From IMG/VR virus record IMGVR_UViG_3300034071_001167, positions 1 to 42,533 of that record: 42,533 nt of DNA; one strand, 5' to 3'. This document shows positions 1,552-27,434 of the stretch, in pieces. The translations under genes were made by a program, and so were the position numbers. Position 1 is the stretch's first letter. The number at the start of each line of letters is the position of its first letter. The notes under the pieces were generated by a model, which worked only from the letters and a program-made list of their open reading frames with translations, made no database searches and was not told where the DNA came from. The stretch is from a virus.

Positions 1552-1861
1552 ATGCGAATACTCTATAAGGATTTGCTGGTTGAACAACAAAAGACTCAAG
1601 ACTTTCTGGTAATGGTTCTTTTAAGATTACATTCACATGATAACCATCTTTCTTTGTTGCTTCTGAAATCACATTACCTTCTTCATCATACACAGCATCA
1701 TTGTTATAAATCTCTCCAACAACATCAATGTCTCCTGTTGCAGGATAGACACTGTAATAAGTATTATCATTTTCGTCTGTTTTATAGTAATCTACCTTCT
1801 TGAACTCATTGTTCATTTTAGTCTTAGAGGTAAATCTCAGAAAATAAGTAGTGTAACTCAT
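1547..1861 (-). CDS. Small protein of the fibre cluster, 104 aa, unknown
   Basis: A 104-residue acidic protein between the lectin-like adhesin and the FG-GAP fibre. It begins MSYTTYFLRF and ends NPYRVFAS; the middle is rich in D, E, N and Y (KTDENDNTYYSVYPATGD) with no recognisable catalytic motif, signal peptide or membrane helix. Its position within the fibre cluster suggests a small fibre accessory or assembly protein, but I do not recognise the family. It starts 11 nt after the upstream gene ends, so it is probably co-transcribed with it. Confidence 0.7.
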   Translation of the reverse strand: MSYTTYFLRFTSKTKMNNEFKKVDYYKTDENDNTYYSVYPATGDIDVVGEIYNNDAVYDEEGNVISEATKKDGYHVNVILKEPLPESLESFVVQPANPYRVFAS

Positions 1862-1872
1862 TGTTTTTATTT

Positions 1873-3108
1873 TTATTTAGTGAGAAATGCTAATTGTTGA
1901 TTTGAAAGTCTTGAAGGATAATAAACTAATTGAGAAAGTGTTCCATGTAAACTGTATAACGCTTCAGAAGTGTATCTTCCTATTTTTAAATTATTTAATC
2001 CAGTAGGAACACGGGAGGTTCCAGTAAGAACATAACTAGTTCCATTAGCAGCAACTCCAAAATCTGCATTTTTGTATGCATAAGCATGTTTTGGATTTGG
2101 GATTGCTGCCTCATTATAAATCAATCCAGTTTCACTTAATGATACTCTGGCAAATATTTGTTCTTGTCCTGTACTACCACTTGTATTTACTAATTGTTCT
2201 GCTTGACTTCCAGTTCCAGCATCAAATGTGTAAATTGAACTATACTTTAATGATGCTCTGTTTGATACATGTGCAACAATAGTTCCCTCACTTGGATTGA
2301 ACCAACTTGAGAAATTAGTTCCTGTTATAGAAGCACGATCAGCAGAACGAGTGACTGTAGAACCTGATGTGGGAATGTATGATGTTGGAAATTCTCCTGT
2401 TTCTAGTTGCCCTCCCCAAATATAAAATCCATTTGTCCCAGTGCCAGAAAAAGTAGAAATATTATAAGTTGAAGAATTTGCTATGTAAAATTCTGGGTCA
2501 TTCGCAGTAGTACTTGGAGTATAAGTAACTATACACCTATACCATCCATTTGGATATGCAACTATTGAAGATGTAGTACTATTGAGAGTACTAGATGAAG
2601 TAACTGTACCATTAATTAAATCAAATGTACAGTAATTACTTTGGTTATCTCCTCTAATAGTAAAATATTGGTCGCCATTAGATTTTAAAAATACAGAAAC
2701 AGTAATTGTTGCCGTGCTGGCAAGCGGCATGTATGGTTTCAACGCATGAGTTGCAGTTGTAGTAGTCGCTACTATGAGAGTTGCTGTAGTAGTTCCATCT
2801 GGAGCAGCACCAGCATCAGCAGTTGTAGTTAAGTTTACTGCTCCCCAATATGCATCAGACATGTTAGAACTTTGTTGATAAGCATTAGTTCTACTCTCTT
2901 CAATCAACAAACCATTACATACACCAGTTGTTGGATCATGATCAAATCTTGGAGAGTCTGTAGGAGCAACGACAATTAATCCATTGTCATCAACATAAGT
3001 TCCTGTGCTACTTCTCGTGAAAGTAATACGTGGATCTAATGATTTTGCCTTAGCAAAATTTAAATTTAAACTTGGTCCCTCATCTGGAAAATTCTGCGAA
3101 ATTGCCAT
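1873..3108 (-). CDS. Lectin-like (LamG/concanavalin-type) tail adhesin, 411 aa
   Basis: The N-terminus (residues about 25-75) has the pattern FTRSSTGTYVDDNGL, then PRFDHDPTTG, then GLLIEESRTN, which introduces carbohydrate-binding modules in many phage receptor-binding proteins. A beta-rich region follows, with FYIWGGQLETGEFPTSYIPT and TVTRSADRASI at about residues 230-262, then a C-terminal jelly-roll-like stretch ending SRLSNQQLAFLTK. This suggests one or two concanavalin A-like domains that bind cell-surface glycans. It overlaps the next upstream gene by one base and has its own late promoter at 3131. Receptor binding is inferred from family and location. Confidence 0.75.
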   Translation of the reverse strand: MAISQNFPDEGPSLNLNFAKAKSLDPRITFTRSSTGTYVDDNGLIVVAPTDSPRFDHDPTTGVCNGLLIEESRTNAYQQSSNMSDAYWGAVNLTTTADAGAAPDGTTTATLIVATTTTATHALKPYMPLASTATITVSVFLKSNGDQYFTIRGDNQSNYCTFDLINGTVTSSSTLNSTTSSIVAYPNGWYRCIVTYTPSTTANDPEFYIANSSTYNISTFSGTGTNGFYIWGGQLETGEFPTSYIPTSGSTVTRSADRASITGTNFSSWFNPSEGTIVAHVSNRASLKYSSIYTFDAGTGSQAEQLVNTSGSTGQEQIFARVSLSETGLIYNEAAIPNPKHAYAYKNADFGVAANGTSYVLTGTSRVPTGLNNLKIGRYTSEALYSLHGTLSQLVYYPSRLSNQQLAFLTK

Positions 3109-4538
3109 TATTTCAACTTCTCTTTGAGGTTATTTATTTCTATCTGATGTTCCTTTACGCACTCAATCAGAAGTGCAATCAGACCGTTATAATTAACCGT
3201 CTTCGTTTGATCTCCACTTACAAGTTGTGGTAAAACTTTTTCAACTTGTTGTGCAACTACACCCACTGATGGACGATTTGTTTCCTTCCAGTTAAAGGTC
3301 ACACCATCCAATTGAAGAACTTTATCAATTGGATTTTCAATTCTTTGAATGTTATCTTTCAGATTGATGTCAGATGAGGAGTTAAAGTCAGTGGAAGTTG
3401 TAATACCAGTAACTAATACATCACCAACAACATGAAGTGCTGATGTTGGATTTGTGGTTCCTATGCCAACTCTTTGAGATCTATCAATTCTTAATGCTTC
3501 GACTAAAGTAGAACTAGCGGCGGTTTTAAATACCAAACTACCAGAACGGCTAGCAACTGCGGTAGCACGATTATCAATACAAACTATACTTGCAAGTGGT
3601 GCATTTGCATCTTTTGCACCATAAAAATTGACAGCACCCTGTTCTGCATTTTGACTTGTCCAAGTTCCAAAAATACCCAATCCTTCAGCAGCAACTCCTT
3701 CAGTTATAATTTGAAGTTTGTTTGTAGCAGATCCTACGTTTGTTCCACCTATACCAAGAATACCGTTAGAAGTTACAATAATTGATTCAGTAATTGCAGC
3801 ACCAACTTGCAATAATGCTCTTGGATTTGTGGTTCCGATACCAGTGTTACCAGAAACATAAGCACCACCAGTAACCTGAAGTGTTTGTGATGCTGTTCCT
3901 GTTGTGACTAAAGGAGTTGCATTATAACCAATAATAACTTCACCAGTGGAAGTAATTCCTAATCTATTATCAGACGTAGTAGCATCTCTGAAAACAAATT
4001 GATCACTTGATTGAATGCCAAATCTATAATTTTTATTTGTGTTGATTGCTCTAAATGCAACTACAGAAGTTCCATCTCCAGATTGAACTTGAGCGTTTAC
4101 CTCACCTGTTGGATTAAAAACATTAAGAGATCCTCCATAAACTTGAAGTTTTTGAGATGGATTTGTGGTTCCTATACCAATATTTCCACCAAAAGGATTT
4201 AAAAGTATGTCCCAATTTGCAGTATTCAAAGCATTTGTAACTTGAACACCCATTGCATTCCCATTATTAATATGGGCAAATTGCATATTAGTAGAATCAG
4301 TTGCGTGTCCCCTTAATTTGAGAACAGCATAAGTATCCATATCACCTTTAGTTACTGCATAACCAACATTTGGTTGATTCCACAATAAAGTTTTTCCTCT
4401 AACATCTAATGTTGTTATTGGATTTGTGGTTCCAATGCCAACTTTTGAGAATCCAGTGGTTGCGATACCAATGTTTCTTGTCGTATCATCAACAACAATA
4501 AGAGATGCTAGTTGAGATAATTCTCTGTTGTTTGCCAT
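3108..4538 (-). CDS. Tail fibre with C-terminal S74 intramolecular chaperone, 476 aa
   Basis: A fibre protein with several GIGTTNP-type linker motifs (near residues 36, 121, 237 and 361) separated by beta-rich segments. The last 90 residues form a Peptidase_S74 domain: SSSDINLKDNI at about 387, then GVVAQQVEKVLPQLV, then VNYNGLIALLIECVKEH and a final helix. In this family the domain helps fibres trimerise and then cleaves itself off just before the serine of the S-D pair. The mature fibre would thus lack the last ~88 residues. A late promoter lies at 4561. Family call is strong; the cleavage site is inferred. Confidence 0.85.
   Translation of the reverse strand: MANNRELSQLASLIVVDDTTRNIGIATTGFSKVGIGTTNPITTLDVRGKTLLWNQPNVGYAVTKGDMDTYAVLKLRGHATDSTNMQFAHINNGNAMGVQVTNALNTANWDILLNPFGGNIGIGTTNPSQKLQVYGGSLNVFNPTGEVNAQVQSGDGTSVVAFRAINTNKNYRFGIQSSDQFVFRDATTSDNRLGITSTGEVIIGYNATPLVTTGTASQTLQVTGGAYVSGNTGIGTTNPRALLQVGAAITESIIVTSNGILGIGGTNVGSATNKLQIITEGVAAEGLGIFGTWTSQNAEQGAVNFYGAKDANAPLASIVCIDNRATAVASRSGSLVFKTAASSTLVEALRIDRSQRVGIGTTNPTSALHVVGDVLVTGITTSTDFNSSSDINLKDNIQRIENPIDKVLQLDGVTFNWKETNRPSVGVVAQQVEKVLPQLVSGDQTKTVNYNGLIALLIECVKEHQIEINNLKEKLK
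3131..3138 (-). promoter_or_regulatory. Late promoter element AATAAATA
   Basis: Minus-strand AATAAATA lies 22 nt upstream of the ATG at 3108, inside the 3' end of the S74 fibre gene. It matches the T4-type late promoter element and the spacing seen elsewhere in the window. Confidence 0.6.
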
Positions 4539-22075: not shown

Positions 22076-23299
22076 TTAAGTAAATGAATCTCTGATAAGT
22101 TTTAAAGCAGTGTATGCTCTATTATTATAAATGCTGTGTTTAAGTTGAGAAATTAAATAATTACCACTTGAATCTTTTGTTTTATCTGTTCCAAATTTTT
22201 TCTTTTCTTGATCACTTGTTGGAAGAGGAAACTGAACTGTAATTACTTGTCCTGCTCTCAAATCAGGGTTTAATGGAACTAGAATGTTCAAGGATTGCGA
22301 AAACAAAAGATTCAAACGAATGTATGTTTGATTTTGGTATTTAGATAACTCTTCTGGTTTTTGCTCATCCTCAGTGGTTTCTCCAGATTGTAATGCCCCA
22401 ACATCTAACATTCTAAACATAAATCTGGTTGGTTGATCGTGCAGATTTTCGGGAAGTTTTGGATATTTCTTCGGACTCACTTGCGAAACTTTAGTAACTT
22501 GATACTGCGTATCATTCTGCATTTTCATGTTCTTAGAATCCCAATAAATTGTTTTATTGGCATACATTCCCATTCTTGACATTGCACTTTGATCAGAATT
22601 CTTTGTCAAATAATCTGAAATAATTACAAATCTATCTCCAGGATTTACAATCTCAGTTTTTTTGTATGTGGCAACAGAAGACTGTTTTAATAATGTATCA
22701 ACAGATTTAAATACATAACCATCTAAAGTTTCAAAAAATAGAAATCCTCCAGAGGTAGTTCCATTTTGACTTTTTGGACACAACCATTGAATTGTATCAA
22801 ATGGTCTTTTTTGATTGCCAATAAAGGAATAAGAGTTTGTCGTATTCTCTGAATTTATTTTTTTCTTAGTTTGTAAACTTTTTTCAGATCCATTTAGCAA
22901 AGATTTGACAGTATTTCCTATGTTTCCTTCGTATTTTTTTCCCAATCTAATCGTTTCATTTTTCAAACATTCAAGAGAAAATCCATTCAGTGTTGCCATT
23001 TGACCACTGGATTTTGTAAAAGCATCTCCTGTTGTTTGATTAATAATTTTATGATTCTTCGTAAATTTTAATGATTGATTGGCATAGGGAAAATAAATTT
23101 CTCCAACTAAACTTTCCCCACCCAAAATTGGTCCATTACTCAAAACACCATCTGTATCCACAAACGTAATTGATAATGAAATTGTTGGGCATAGAATGTC
23201 TTCATAATAATTAATTGCAGCACCTCTTGCAATACTGTACTCACCAAAAGTATCAGAAATTATAGATAACTGTTTAATTTTATAATTGTCTACTGCCAT
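22076..23299 (-). CDS. Baseplate hub protein, gp27-like, 407 aa
   Basis: Starts MAVDNYKIKQLSIISDTFGE. The early segment CPTISLSITFVDTDGVLSN and GGESLVGEIYFPYAN are typical of the first barrel of gp27-like hub proteins. A helical domain (about 110-160) and IQWLCPKSQN...GFLFFETLDGYVFKSVD follow, then a beta C-terminus with LNILVPLNPDLRAGQVITVQF. Position immediately before the OB-fold protein mirrors the gp27-gp5 complex of T4. Its start overlaps the preceding stop (TAATG), implying translational coupling. Assigned by fold-like pattern and context. Confidence 0.7.
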   Translation of the reverse strand: MAVDNYKIKQLSIISDTFGEYSIARGAAINYYEDILCPTISLSITFVDTDGVLSNGPILGGESLVGEIYFPYANQSLKFTKNHKIINQTTGDAFTKSSGQMATLNGFSLECLKNETIRLGKKYEGNIGNTVKSLLNGSEKSLQTKKKINSENTTNSYSFIGNQKRPFDTIQWLCPKSQNGTTSGGFLFFETLDGYVFKSVDTLLKQSSVATYKKTEIVNPGDRFVIISDYLTKNSDQSAMSRMGMYANKTIYWDSKNMKMQNDTQYQVTKVSQVSPKKYPKLPENLHDQPTRFMFRMLDVGALQSGETTEDEQKPEELSKYQNQTYIRLNLLFSQSLNILVPLNPDLRAGQVITVQFPLPTSDQEKKKFGTDKTKDSSGNYLISQLKHSIYNNRAYTALKLIRDSFT

Positions 23300-24345
23300 T
23301 ACCCAATTGATGAGAGATTAGATGCCATTGTGGTGAAATTTGAAGTATTTGAACCTCCACCTTGCCTATTTAGTTGCCCAGACTGAACTTGACTAGGAGA
23401 TTGGGCAATAACTGGTTGAATCAGTGTTCTTGTTGCTGTTGCTGTTGTAGAAGGTTTTAAATCTCCTGGTTTTGATTTAATTTCTGGTTTAATTTTTGCT
23501 GCTTCTGTATCTTTTGTTTTCATTGGATGTGTTCTAGTCCATTGCCCAGGATCTACAGTTCCTCCTCTAGGTCCTATTTCCCAATGTAAATGTGGTCCTT
23601 CACTTCTACCAGTAGATCCAACATTTCCCAACAGTGCTCCCTGATCAAAAGTTTGCCCCTGTTTATAATTTGCTGGTTTGATGAGATGTCCAAAAAAATG
23701 AGTTTCTCCATAAACACTATCTTTCCATTCAATGTAATTACCATATCCAGAATCATAACCTGCTTTTGTCACAACTCCAGGAAAATAAGCATAAAGGGGA
23801 GTTCCTGATGGTGCTGATACATCATAACCTTTATGATTAGTTCCCGTGCTTTGTCTGTATCCTACTCCAGAAATGATTGGTTGAGATGATTTAAAAGGAC
23901 TATAAGAAACTGTTAATGGTGCCTGTGTTTTACCACCATAAGCAACAGATCCACTTGTTCCACTCAGAGCAGCAAAACCACCAGCACCTAGCATACCTCC
24001 AACAAGACCAGCAGGAGAAGGTTCTTTATTCTGTTGCTCCTGTTGCTGCGATCCTCCCATTTCTTCAGTGAGAGATTTTAAGGCATCAACAAATCCCTGC
24101 GAATAAAATGTTGTTGGATCAAGTTGCTGCTGCAGATTTTCACCATCTGTCATTAGAGAAACGGAACTAATTTTTGCTTCATCATCTGCAAGTTTTTCCT
24201 CTCTATTATCAAGTTCTGTGTTCAAAAAAGATGATTTTTTAATGTTATTGTCAGTTTTTAAATCACTCAAACGCAAGAAAGAATCCACCTTTCGGATTGA
24301 AGATGGTGCTGATCCAAGCAACGATGACTCTTTAATATTAACCAT
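23299..24345 (-). CDS. Hub-associated M23 endopeptidase, 348 aa
   Basis: Residues about 165-268 form an M23 (lysostaphin/LytM) peptidase: zinc ligands H171 and D175 in NHKGYD, H220 in HFFGHL, and H252-x-H254 in GPHLHWEI. M23 enzymes cut peptide cross-bridges in peptidoglycan. The N-terminal half is helical and Q/E-rich with a Gly/Ala stretch near 112-130; the C-terminal ~80 residues are a low-complexity linker. It sits between the lysozyme-domain protein and the gp27-like hub, so it is probably a tail-tip enzyme that opens the wall during DNA entry. All catalytic residues are present. No signal peptide. Confidence 0.85.
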   Translation of the reverse strand: MVNIKESSLLGSAPSSIRKVDSFLRLSDLKTDNNIKKSSFLNTELDNREEKLADDEAKISSVSLMTDGENLQQQLDPTTFYSQGFVDALKSLTEEMGGSQQQEQQNKEPSPAGLVGGMLGAGGFAALSGTSGSVAYGGKTQAPLTVSYSPFKSSQPIISGVGYRQSTGTNHKGYDVSAPSGTPLYAYFPGVVTKAGYDSGYGNYIEWKDSVYGETHFFGHLIKPANYKQGQTFDQGALLGNVGSTGRSEGPHLHWEIGPRGGTVDPGQWTRTHPMKTKDTEAAKIKPEIKSKPGDLKPSTTATATRTLIQPVIAQSPSQVQSGQLNRQGGGSNTSNFTTMASNLSSIG

Positions 24346-25798
24346 AAATGTGCGGCATTGATGCGTTAATGTTTAAATGATTTATTGAATTAATTGTCCA
24401 CAATCTTGTCAATGGGTTATTTGTCGCAATTTCACTTCCAGAAGGAAAATCTGGAACTGCTTCAGTATTCGTTCCACCTTGAGATCCTTGCATAATTGGA
24501 GGAAGAGTTGCCACAGATGAAGATGAAGAAGGAGGAGTCAATTCAGCAACAGATTTTTGTGGAACCTCTGGTTTAACTTGTGTCGATGCAACTGCTCCAA
24601 CAAAAGGAGCACTCGCATCACCAGATGGTGGTTTCATTGACGTTTGATCTGGTTTTACATCTGCTGCTTGTGGTGTTCCCACTGGTGAACGTGATGCAGA
24701 TGATGGTTTTGGTTTTATTGCTGGTTTTGTTTCTGGTTTTGCTGTTTGTTCTGCTGGTTTAAATGATTTAATCCATGCGTTATGTTCTTTATCTCTTGGT
24801 CCTCCAGGTCTAGACAAAGATTCCCTAGGTCTTTCCCATTTGATCATCCACCAACGTGCTGCCTGCTCTGCAGATTTAAATGATTGATTTAAATATGATG
24901 GTCCAGCATCCTCTTTGAGAGCATAGTCTATTTGTCCTTTCCAATTTTTTTCCCAATCATTAACTGTTGCTGCCATTCTGGTGCTTCTTGGTTTTTTCCA
25001 CTGGAACAATCCACCAGCACCGCCATCATCACCACTCTTCGCATTGGTTCTAAATCCACTTTCTGCTTTGATGTTTGCCATAATACCCAAAGCATGTTCT
25101 TTAGACAACCCCTTATCATTAATTAAATAGTTGTAAATTGATTGTTGAGTTGCATTTCCCTCGCTAGATTGAGTAATTTCATCATCATTAGAAACTGCTG
25201 TTCCTACTGCAATCCCAGTTGCGGCGGCAGCACCTTGAACCAATTTCTGAAAGAACGATTCTTCTCCCTGAGGTCTTCCAGTTTGTCCAAATTGAAATGC
25301 CCCTTTAGCTCCACCCGAAACAGATTTCCTGAGAGATTTTAGAATATTAGTCTTTTCTTGTACATCTTTTTTAGCAGCAACAAGTTTTTCCCTTGCTACA
25401 ATCTGTTGTTGCCTTTGTTTTTGTTCATCTAAGAGATATCTACTTATACCTTCTACATCAGTTCTTAATGATTGCAATCCAGCACTCAAAGAAAGAAAAG
25501 AACTATTCAAAAAAGAAATTGCTTTTGCAAGTTCCTGTTCTTGTGAATCAGACTCTCTTTCTACACGTACAACCTCTCCATTAATCTGCTGAATTTCAGT
25601 AGATTGAGTGCTGATTGTCTGCAATAATGATTGCAGATAATTTTGATTTGATTGACTTTGTACTAAAGCAGTTTGAGCAGTTTCAAAAGCAGATTCAGAA
25701 AGTTGTCGAGACTTTTCTTCGTCACCACCATTAACATAAACTGGTGAATTATTGAAGAAACTTTGAGTCGAAATTTTTCTTTCTGCTAGTTCAGCCAT
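24338..25798 (-). CDS. Hub structural protein with tail lysozyme domain, 486 aa
   Basis: Residues 30-160 are a long coiled coil. Residues about 217-345 match the phage tail lysozyme family: IYNYLINDKGLSKEHALGIM, then NIKAESGFR with the likely catalytic E246, then GGAGGLFQWKK and the later ARWWMIKWERP. The C-terminal third is Pro/Lys/Ser-rich low complexity. Such domains cut glycan strands of peptidoglycan. The gene follows the gp51-like frame with an 8-nt overlap and precedes the M23 gene (8-nt overlap). The coiled coil may anchor the enzyme in the hub. Good family match; precise role inferred. Confidence 0.8.
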   Translation of the reverse strand: MAELAERKISTQSFFNNSPVYVNGGDEEKSRQLSESAFETAQTALVQSQSNQNYLQSLLQTISTQSTEIQQINGEVVRVERESDSQEQELAKAISFLNSSFLSLSAGLQSLRTDVEGISRYLLDEQKQRQQQIVAREKLVAAKKDVQEKTNILKSLRKSVSGGAKGAFQFGQTGRPQGEESFFQKLVQGAAAATGIAVGTAVSNDDEITQSSEGNATQQSIYNYLINDKGLSKEHALGIMANIKAESGFRTNAKSGDDGGAGGLFQWKKPRSTRMAATVNDWEKNWKGQIDYALKEDAGPSYLNQSFKSAEQAARWWMIKWERPRESLSRPGGPRDKEHNAWIKSFKPAEQTAKPETKPAIKPKPSSASRSPVGTPQAADVKPDQTSMKPPSGDASAPFVGAVASTQVKPEVPQKSVAELTPPSSSSSVATLPPIMQGSQGGTNTEAVPDFPSGSEIATNNPLTRLWTINSINHLNINASMPHIYG

Positions 25799-25967
25799 TT
25801 TGCTTTTGTTTCTCTTCTTCTATGTGTTCCTTCAGCAGAGCCAAATAAATTTCCCTTTCCCAAGGAATCATGTTTTCAACATCACTTAAACTATATTTAT
25901 GGTATTGCATGAGAGCAAAATTAATTCTAAAGTGTGATTCAAGATCTTCTCTTGCAATACTTAAGCG
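25791..25967 (-). CDS. 51: gp51-like hub-assembly frame, likely reached by -1 frameshift from gp26
   Basis: This 58-codon frame (CGC at 25967 to TGA at 25791) reads RLSIAREDLESHFRINFALM, then QYHKYSLSDVENMIPWEREI, then YLALLKEHIEEE. The MQYHKYS...ENMIPWERE pattern is typical of gp51-like and tail-chaperone proteins. No ATG, GTG, TTG or CTG lies between the preceding in-frame stop (TAA at 25998-26000) and the conserved start of this sequence; the first ATG comes only at residue 20. The frame is in register for a -1 slip at T_TTT_TTC two codons before the gp26 stop, giving a 299-residue gp26-gp51 fusion. Its last codons overlap the next gene's ATG. Confidence 0.75.
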   Translation of the reverse strand, partial: RLSIAREDLESHFRINFALMQYHKYSLSDVENMIPWEREIYLALLKEHIEEEKQKQNG

Positions 25968-26689
25968 AAAAAATCCTTTAATCCCTCCAACGAAACTTTA
26001 TTGATGACTCCAGTGTTTGGATTCTCAACGTCAATTTCATAATAAAGTTTAGGCATAGTATCAAAAAACTTTTCCATTTCTTTATATTGCATTGGCGTCA
26101 ATTTTCCAACGTAATCTATCCTTTCTTTCTCTGTGTATTGATTAAAATCCCATGCTTCCTCTTCAGTATATAATGTATCTAAACAATTTGCCATTGTTTT
26201 AAGTTCTTCATCAACTCTCTCTTCTGGTGTAGTGGGAGTCACAAAGTTAGTTTCAATGAATTGACTCAAAGAAGGATACTTCATCCTAAGTGTTAACTTG
26301 TCATCAAGAACAATGTCTCTCTTGTGATCTTTATTCTTTTTAACTTCAATTTCATCCACATAAATTGTCACTGGTACTTCAGTTGTTCCATCATCAGAAC
26401 AAGTAACAACCATCTTAATTGATTCGCCAATAGATTTACCACGAATGTTTAAAAAGAAATATTCAATGTCAAACGTTGGAAGTTCGTCAACATCAATTCC
26501 TTTGGTGATCAAACAGTTTGCTAAAACCTGTTTGACAGCGTTTGAAATCTCATAATTGTTCTGAGATTCCATTGCAAGAATTAAAATTTTCTCTTCTTTA
26601 ACAAGAAAAGGACGATACTTAATTTTCTTGTTATTTGATGGCAAAACCAACTCATAAACAGGTGTCGCTGGTGCAGGTAATGTTGTCAT
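25961..26689 (-). CDS. 26: Baseplate hub subunit gp26
   Basis: A 242-residue protein starting MTTLPAPATPVYELVLPSNN followed by KIKYRPFLVKEEKILILAME, the hallmark of the T4 gp26 baseplate family (YRPFLVKEEK-L motif). The rest is the expected helical body ending GVINKVSLEGLKDFFA. gp26 takes part in central hub assembly. The stop codon lies two codons after a T_TTT_TTC slippery site, so some ribosomes probably continue into the gp51-like frame. A CTAAATA late element lies upstream. Confidence in the family is high. Confidence 0.88.
   Translation of the reverse strand: MTTLPAPATPVYELVLPSNNKKIKYRPFLVKEEKILILAMESQNNYEISNAVKQVLANCLITKGIDVDELPTFDIEYFFLNIRGKSIGESIKMVVTCSDDGTTEVPVTIYVDEIEVKKNKDHKRDIVLDDKLTLRMKYPSLSQFIETNFVTPTTPEERVDEELKTMANCLDTLYTEEEAWDFNQYTEKERIDYVGKLTPMQYKEMEKFFDTMPKLYYEIDVENPNTGVINKVSLEGLKDFFA
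25967..25988 (-). promoter_or_regulatory. Candidate -1 ribosomal frameshift cassette
   Basis: Minus strand: a Shine-Dalgarno-like GGAGGG (25988-25983), 9 nt, then the slippery heptamer T_TTT_TTC (25973-25967) in the gp26 frame, followed by GCT TAA. A small hairpin (CAAGA/TCTTG) begins about 15 nt downstream. Order and spacing resemble the E. coli dnaX frameshift signal. Confidence 0.75.
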
Positions 26690-26720: not shown

Positions 26721-27434
26721 TTAAGAATTTAAGATGTTTGAACTATTGAATAGTTTTGATTCTAATCCCGTTTTTGTTATTTCCGAAACGTAATATCTAT
26801 CATATTGAAAGGTCACACTAACTTTTAGAACATTTGAATTTCCATAACTTACTGGCATTGAAGTAATGTTGATTGGCCATGCCTTTGTTAACTCATAACT
26901 TAACATATTTGACTTATATAATGCCTCAGAAACTCCAGGTCTTTCTTCTTGATATAAAGTATCTTTTTCAAACTTAACTATTCTAATCGTATCTTTATAA
27001 GAATCTGGATATCTCAATTTCGAATAAGTGCTATCCGATCTATCCGTCTTGTTAATCGGATTAATGTAATTCATCCATGTTTCAAAGAATTTAATGATAA
27101 CATGACTAGTATCTACATAAAATGTTAAATTTAATGGAGGATAAGAACGAATTGTTGGGAAAACCTCAATCAAACCTTGCCTATCACCAACGACTTGTGT
27201 TGTTGAATATTGAGTTCCTGGAAGTTCTGCTTGTGTACAAAGTAATCCTACTTTTTGAAACAAATCAAATCCATCGGTATCTAAGGTAGTTCTATTTAAA
27301 TCACTACCTAACAACCAATTTGTATAATTTCCAACAGGAAAAGTTACTTGATAGAGATTATCAAACGATACTTTAGAAAAAACATTTTTGACTTTCTCTA
27401 TCGTATATCTAAAATCGCTTGCAGAAACTCCCAC
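26721..27434 (-). CDS. Tail-tube-fold baseplate protein, probably gp54-like, 237 aa
   Basis: Begins with GTG (MGVSASDFRYTIEKVKNVFS); no ATG is available near the conserved N-terminus. Features of tail-tube-like proteins: NLYQVTFPVGNY, AELPGTQYSTTQVVGDRQGL, LNLTFYVD, FFETWMNYI, a central DSYKDTIRIVKF, and the closing LKVSVTFQYDRYYV strand. Together with gp48 across the divergent promoter it most plausibly plays the gp54 role (initiator of tail tube polymerisation). gp19-like tube protein is an alternative, but that gene is normally found with the sheath gene. A late promoter lies at 27462. Confidence 0.65.
   Translation of the reverse strand: MGVSASDFRYTIEKVKNVFSKVSFDNLYQVTFPVGNYTNWLLGSDLNRTTLDTDGFDLFQKVGLLCTQAELPGTQYSTTQVVGDRQGLIEVFPTIRSYPPLNLTFYVDTSHVIIKFFETWMNYINPINKTDRSDSTYSKLRYPDSYKDTIRIVKFEKDTLYQEERPGVSEALYKSNMLSYELTKAWPINITSMPVSYGNSNVLKVSVTFQYDRYYVSEITKTGLESKLFNSSNILNS

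Follow-up and report, generated by a model that had tools for sequence, protein, structure and literature searches.

The gp26-like gene and the gp51-like reading frame that follows it on the minus strand of the window (the complete 42,533 nt stretch of the IMG/VR virus record IMGVR_UViG_3300034071_001167, from a T4-like cyanophage) encode, at the level of the sequence, a short and a longer product with a common N-terminus, the longer one reached by a -1 shift close to the 3' end of gp26 (Table 1). These are very probably the two forms of a tail-assembly chaperone (TAC), made by programmed -1 ribosomal frameshifting. The basis is the signals at the junction, their conservation, the predicted RNA structure, the homology between the extension and the T4 gp51 C-terminus, and an exchange in gene copy number between phages; from these we infer that the shift occurs, how often it does so and that the products act as chaperones. 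The frameshift and its comparison with the G/GT proteins of other tailed phages had been proposed in a sequence-only reading of this DNA and are strongly supported: conservation, codon choice and RNA structure all favour them, as does an in-frame counterpart in T4.

Table 1. Features of the gp26-gp51 junction and its neighbours in the window.
Feature	Position	Strand	Remarks
Upstream neighbour, tail tube / gp54-like protein	26721..27434	-	phrog_45 tail tube E 5e-40; PF23849 Phage_TTP_2 E 4e-18
gp26-like ORF, putative short product (TAC-N), 242 aa	25961..26689	-	stop TAA 25961-25963
TAA opening the -1 frame	25998..26000	-	no ATG/GTG/TTG/CTG between this TAA and the conserved extension
Shine-Dalgarno-like GGAGGG	25983..25988	-	within Leu-Glu-Gly codons, 9 nt upstream of heptamer
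Slippery heptamer T_TTT_TTC, gp26 frame	25967..25973	-	kept as T_TTT_TTN in 114/118 relatives
-1 frame extension, gp51-like C-terminal part, 58 codons (RLSIARED...KQKQNG)	25791..25967	-	stop TGA 25791-25793
Predicted 3' stimulatory hairpin	25902..25960	-	starts 6 nt after heptamer; fold z -4.40
Downstream neighbour, 486 aa, phage tail lysozyme domain	24338..25798	-	PF18013 E 3e-20; weak phrog_9570 tape measure E 4e-11

The gp26-like product matches PF12322 T4_baseplate (E 1.7e-64) and phrog_150 (E 6.8e-69) and is the only protein of the window to match PF12322. The 3' end of its gene reads TTG GAG GGA TTA AAG GAT TTT TTC GCT TAA, while the -1 frame, following its opening TAA, reads AGT TTC GTT GGA GGG ATT AAA GGA TTT TTT CGC TTA AGT ATT GCA AGA GAA. 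In this frame the first start-type codon is an ATG (CTC ATG) 29 codons in, with ATT codons as the only other candidates before it, and re-reading of the sequence confirmed the earlier claim that the gp51-like frame has no start of the ATG, GTG, TTG or CTG type ahead of its conserved part. A slip at T_TTT_TTC would yield ...KDFF followed by RLSIAREDLESHF..., giving a predicted fusion of 241 + 58 = 299 aa. The extension matches phrog_634 'baseplate hub assembly catalyst' (E 9e-26) as well as the C-terminus of phrog_150 (E 6e-9), the latter being the first hint that both parts share one frame in some relatives. The recount and the phrog_634 match bear out the view that the -1 reading enters gp51-like sequence and that the predicted products are 242 and 299 aa long. 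Judged from its sequence, the extension is a real coding region, conserved as protein.

Relatives were collected by scanning IMG/VR with the fusion (58 loci) and, in a second scan, with a gp26 alignment (80 loci), and 28 named phage regions were joined to these; after dropping sequences of more than 95% identity 118 relatives were left for the heptamer counts. When aligning the junctions, T_TTT_TTN was found directly ahead of the gp26 stop in 114 of them, including one (L047) whose junction contains T_TTT_TTT, and at every locus where matching was possible the extension lies in the -1 frame at the same position after gp26. Heptamer and -1 extension occur together in Kyanoviridae and in phages of Pelagibacter, Sinorhizobium, Agrobacterium, Rhizobium, Delftia, Stenotrophomonas and Vibrio, and also in large Aeromonas phages. 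In the window the heptamer is in the right phase, as first read, with one sense codon between it and the stop.

The Phe-Phe pair at the junction is spelled T_TTT in 83 of 83 cases as against 4 of 94 for Phe-Phe pairs elsewhere in these genes (at 80% non-redundancy); Fisher's test gives 2.7e-46, a value inflated by relatedness, which leaves the direction clear and the exact size not. The spelling is found whichever residue precedes the pair (Ser, Asp, Asn or Ala), and a few loci retain the heptamer with Leu (TTT TTA or TTG) in the second place of the pair. A profile of the synonymous sites has a peak over the 3' end of gp26, and its sole comparable peak is at the start of the gene. To judge from codon usage, the X_XXY_YYZ heptamer, which lies in frame, is conserved past the need of the protein.

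Upstream of the heptamer, 81 of the 118 relatives have GGAGG, GAGGG or AGGAG at either of two neighbouring distances, and the Glu codon of this motif is GAG in 55 cases and GAA in 9, compared with 490 and 1319 elsewhere in gp26, a bias whose statistics ignore the relatedness among loci. The spacing of about 9 nt given earlier for the GGAGGG of the window agrees with the measured one.

Downstream of the heptamer the RNA is predicted to fold more stably than shuffled sequence, with a mean z of -2.30 over 113 loci (54% below -2), whereas control stretches inside gp26 show no such excess (mean -0.18). This structure was absent from the first description of the junction. In the window the outer arms of the predicted hairpin lie at 25953-25960 (GTATTGCA) and 25902-25909 (TGCAATAC), and only 1 of 200 shuffles was equally stable. 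The outer stem is common to all 11 loci of the window's group, with 7 bp in one locus and 8 bp in the others, and is so nearly invariant that the window's own hairpin type yields no covariation. The 67 other nearer relatives carry a different, compact hairpin of 11 bp that starts 5 nt after the heptamer, and in one fixed register 86% of cells are paired across these 67 loci as compared with 26-46% when the partner is slid. Within it an Ala codon varies at its third base, which is neutral for the protein, in step with the pairing partner of that base (GCT/GAG, GCA/GTG, GCG/GCG); 45 of 52 are Watson-Crick pairs compared with 26.1 when shuffled (p 5e-5, or 0.0024 after thinning to 75% identity), and at 65% identity the six loci left give a test without power. 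When one consensus structure was sought for all 78 nearer relatives together, RNAalifold predicted no fold (0.0) because two hairpin layouts were mixed, and treating the groups separately resolved the structure. The layouts, a long loop with an 8-bp outer stem in the window's group and a compact 11-bp stem in most others, are unrelated although the phages are related, and both begin 5-6 nt after the heptamer. Both putative stimulatory signals, the upstream Shine-Dalgarno-like motif and the downstream structure, are at the right distance by these predictions, and the set of RNA signals at the window junction looks unusually complete. The slippery heptamer of E. coli dnaX is flanked in the same way as here, by a Shine-Dalgarno-like element ~10 nt before it and a hairpin ~6 nt after it; the dnaX heptamer is A_AAA_AAG and the shift leads to the short product, whereas the predicted shift in the window leads to the long one.

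A branch around T4 has two genes in place of the frameshift. In T4 gp51, which is 249 aa long, residues 1-201 match PF12322 (E 3.9e-52) and residues 147-246 match phrog_634 (E 1.2e-23); the protein is a paralogue of gp26 that carries the extension in its own frame. Two PF12322 genes lie back to back in each of T4, ZZ1, Pm5461, 44RR, Makalu_002 and Gravdalen, and in these phages gp26 lacks both the heptamer and the -1 extension, whereas in the 16 other named phages, counted over whole records, a single PF12322 gene is accompanied by a -1 extension. The T4 gp26 ends in GLKEFFELL, so that the Phe-Phe is kept but spelled TTC TTT after GAG; read at the codon level, this pair without the heptamer is a natural control. 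In Acinetobacter phage ZZ1 the gp51 paralogue (1679-2450, minus strand) matches PF12322 in two frames, from damage to the gene or an error in sequencing. Along the T4 branch duplication has probably supplied one gene for each product: gene 26 yields the short form, and gene 51 yields the long one within a single frame, with no frameshifting. The composition of T4 gp51 together with the exchange of two genes for one suggests that gp26 and gp51 are short and long tail-assembly chaperones.

Expression of gp51 as a separate protein by termination-reinitiation, in which ribosomes stop at the end of gp26 and restart nearby, is improbable as an alternative to this frameshift. It draws on the start codons found in relatives: among the 114 heptamer-bearing relatives 69 have an ATG within 15 nt after the gp26 stop and 13 have an ATG that overlaps it, from which a separate gp51 of 55-60 aa would be possible and at which database annotations start gp51. 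A further 9 have GTG/TTG or a distant ATG. The remaining 23, the window and 22 others, have no ATG, GTG or TTG up to 30 nt past the stop from which to re-initiate, the window offering just ATT-type codons. The expectation that the junctions would combine a conserved heptamer with a missing start was therefore upheld for the heptamer but not for the start as a universal feature. An ATG for gp51 in related phages had been named as what would speak against the frameshift; it is present in many, and since by these counts the heptamer is the constant feature and the start codon the variable one, an ATG in relatives is not decisive by itself. Re-initiation also leaves the conservation of T_TTT_TTN and the hairpin without explanation, and the in-frame fusion of the extension in T4 gp51 is contrary to a separate small protein. 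More favourable to it are the 4 of 118 relatives without the canonical heptamer. In Vibrio phage K364, Salmonella phage CRW-SP2, Vibrio phage VP-1 and Pseudomonas phage Cygsa01 NTT TTY replaces TTT TTN and a TAATG overlap is present, an overlap shared by all of the first four heptamer-free relatives. These TAATG lineages were considered as evidence of separate gp51 expression, a view weakened by their relatives KpS110, phiMAM1, Kuja and TSW001, which have NTT_TTY instead of the heptamer and an intact -1 extension with no usable start, the TAATG being changed to TAATT or TGATC or wholly substituted.

Two further readings are less likely still. Slippage of RNA polymerase on the T run, whereby the fusion would be translated from edited transcripts, is very unlikely. 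The run consists of six T in most loci, which is short for transcriptional slippage, and ends in C in nearly all, and the spacing of the Shine-Dalgarno-like motif, the phase of the codons and the hairpin 5-6 nt away are arranged as at ribosomal frameshift sites. In one group (L019, L022, L029, L043 and L044) an eight-T run (AAT TTT TTT TTA) replaces T_TTT_TTC, and there transcriptional slippage is more plausible. Least credible of all is that the Phe-Phe motif and its codons are kept for protein reasons only, with gp51 a decayed or annotation-level frame. The C-terminal motif LEGLxxFF of gp26 is indeed conserved, but the codon statistics of the other Phe-Phe pairs contradict this reading, as do the loci where Leu replaces the second residue and the heptamer stays and the T4 gp26 with its Phe-Phe and no heptamer; conservation of the extension as protein argues against decay.

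The startless extension of KpS110, phiMAM1, Kuja and TSW001 suggests, from ten phages, that a -1 shift at NTT_TTY is likely in these heptamer-free lineages (Ackermannviridae and allies) too, perhaps through a slip of the single Phe tRNA. This comparison was built on named records, relatives of the Ackermannviridae type being sought in IMG/VR and none found there. In KpS110 and phiMAM1 the region of the extension carries no annotated gene. A similar case is Aeromonas phage Aeh1, listed as the only T4-like phage of its set without gp51 (Sullivan et al. 2010, PMC3037559). At ~3217-3390 of its region the extension and the heptamer are present, startless and unannotated, and from this match gp51 is missed by annotation in Aeh1 and not absent.

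Under the favoured frameshift most ribosomes would stop at 25961 and release the 242-aa gp26 as the short form. A minority, paused by the Shine-Dalgarno-like element (25983-25988) and the hairpin (25902-25960), would slip from T_TTT_TTC to TTT_TTT at 25967-25973 and read 58 codons in the gp51 frame to give the 299-aa fusion as the long form. By analogy with lambda G/GT the shared part would coat the tape measure protein, tail tube or initiator subunits would be recruited by the extension, and both forms would leave before the tail is completed.

The PF12322 domain makes up the short form and the long form finishes with the C-terminal segment of gp51 (phrog_634); following the logic of lambda G/GT, gp26 and gp51 would be the short and long tail-assembly chaperones, under which the tube is built up round the tape measure. 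In T4 both proteins are classed as hub assembly chaperones, and its gp51 is reported as essential for assembly but not part of the particle (PMC3004832). The AlphaFold model of gp26 has a pLDDT of 88.7, and a Foldseek search against the PDB gave the HK97 TAC 2OB9 as top hit (E 0.32, TM-score 0.2), which is not significant; the gp26 profile gave only chance-level matches to PDB sequences. The ATG of the downstream neighbour overlaps the end of the extension. This neighbour and the adjacent gene at 23299-24345 (also on the minus strand) show metallo-endopeptidase family matches and the phage tail lysozyme match PF18013, and their tape-measure family matches arise partly through cell-wall enzyme domains. 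In HTVC008M a 'putative tail tape measure' gene lies one small ORF past the chaperone, and large unnamed ORFs are found there in other relatives.

Many tailed phages use frameshifting to make the chaperones that build their tails, and both the device and the family are already published. The core idea of frameshifted chaperones and a T4-like TAC family is therefore largely known, as far as citing papers report it, and the window is a further example. According to PMC10885494 and PMC12846349, the 2022 study by Vladimirov, Gautam and Davidson (Virology 566:9-15) established which proteins are the TACs of T4-like phages, so that the earlier statement of knowing no description of gp26/gp51 does not hold. 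As cited in the PRFect paper (PMC10885494), some T4-like phages have a short TAC gene and a longer fused gene with no frameshifting, and PMC12846349 cites the same study for poly-T slippery signals in the TAC-N genes of T4-like phages. No description of the Shine-Dalgarno and hairpin signals or of the Ackermannviridae variant was found, the 2022 study being represented by these citing papers, and on that footing the Shine-Dalgarno motif with a covarying hairpin and the startless Ackermannviridae extensions without a canonical heptamer are possibly new details.

Compared with known systems, the locus is closest in composition to T4 gp26/gp51, where the short form is the PF12322 domain and the long form PF12322 plus the phrog_634 extension; in T4 the long form comes from a second, in-frame gene, whereas in the window one gene would give both by the predicted -1 frameshift. 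As in lambda G/GT (Xu, Hendrix and Duda 2004; PMC5009743 Fig. 4), a single locus would give a short and a long product through -1 slippage close to its 3' end, the window locus adjoins a tail tube-like gene and several relatives have a large tape-measure-like gene close downstream; lambda differs in its G/A heptamer and no sequence homology is shown. Another parallel is the TAC of Pakpunavirus Adele and Vandenendeviridae (PMC12846349), where a -1 shift at a T-rich GTTTTT, placed where the short TAC gene ends, lets the long form run on through the next frame, but this is another phage family and GTTTTT resembles the NTT_TTY seen only in the Ackermannviridae and allies and not the T_TTT_TTC of the window.

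The joint picture, to which we give an even chance, is that frameshifting is the general route to the long chaperone in most T4-related myoviruses, driven by a two-sided signal (a Shine-Dalgarno-like motif and a covarying hairpin in two layouts), that the Ackermannviridae and allies have exchanged the canonical heptamer for the simpler NTT_TTY with startless extensions and that the T4 group has escaped by duplication. The gp51 of cyanophages and marine vibriophages has been described as being without the first ~200 residues (Sullivan et al. 2010, PMC3037559). These residues need not be missing but would be gp26, joined by recoding. Annotations would be corrected likewise wherever gp51 appears as a gene of its own, has been assigned an arbitrary start or, as in Aeh1, was overlooked. 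With one lineage relying on frameshifting and another on gene duplication for the same two proteins, the phages would offer a clean natural experiment on why two forms of the chaperone are needed.
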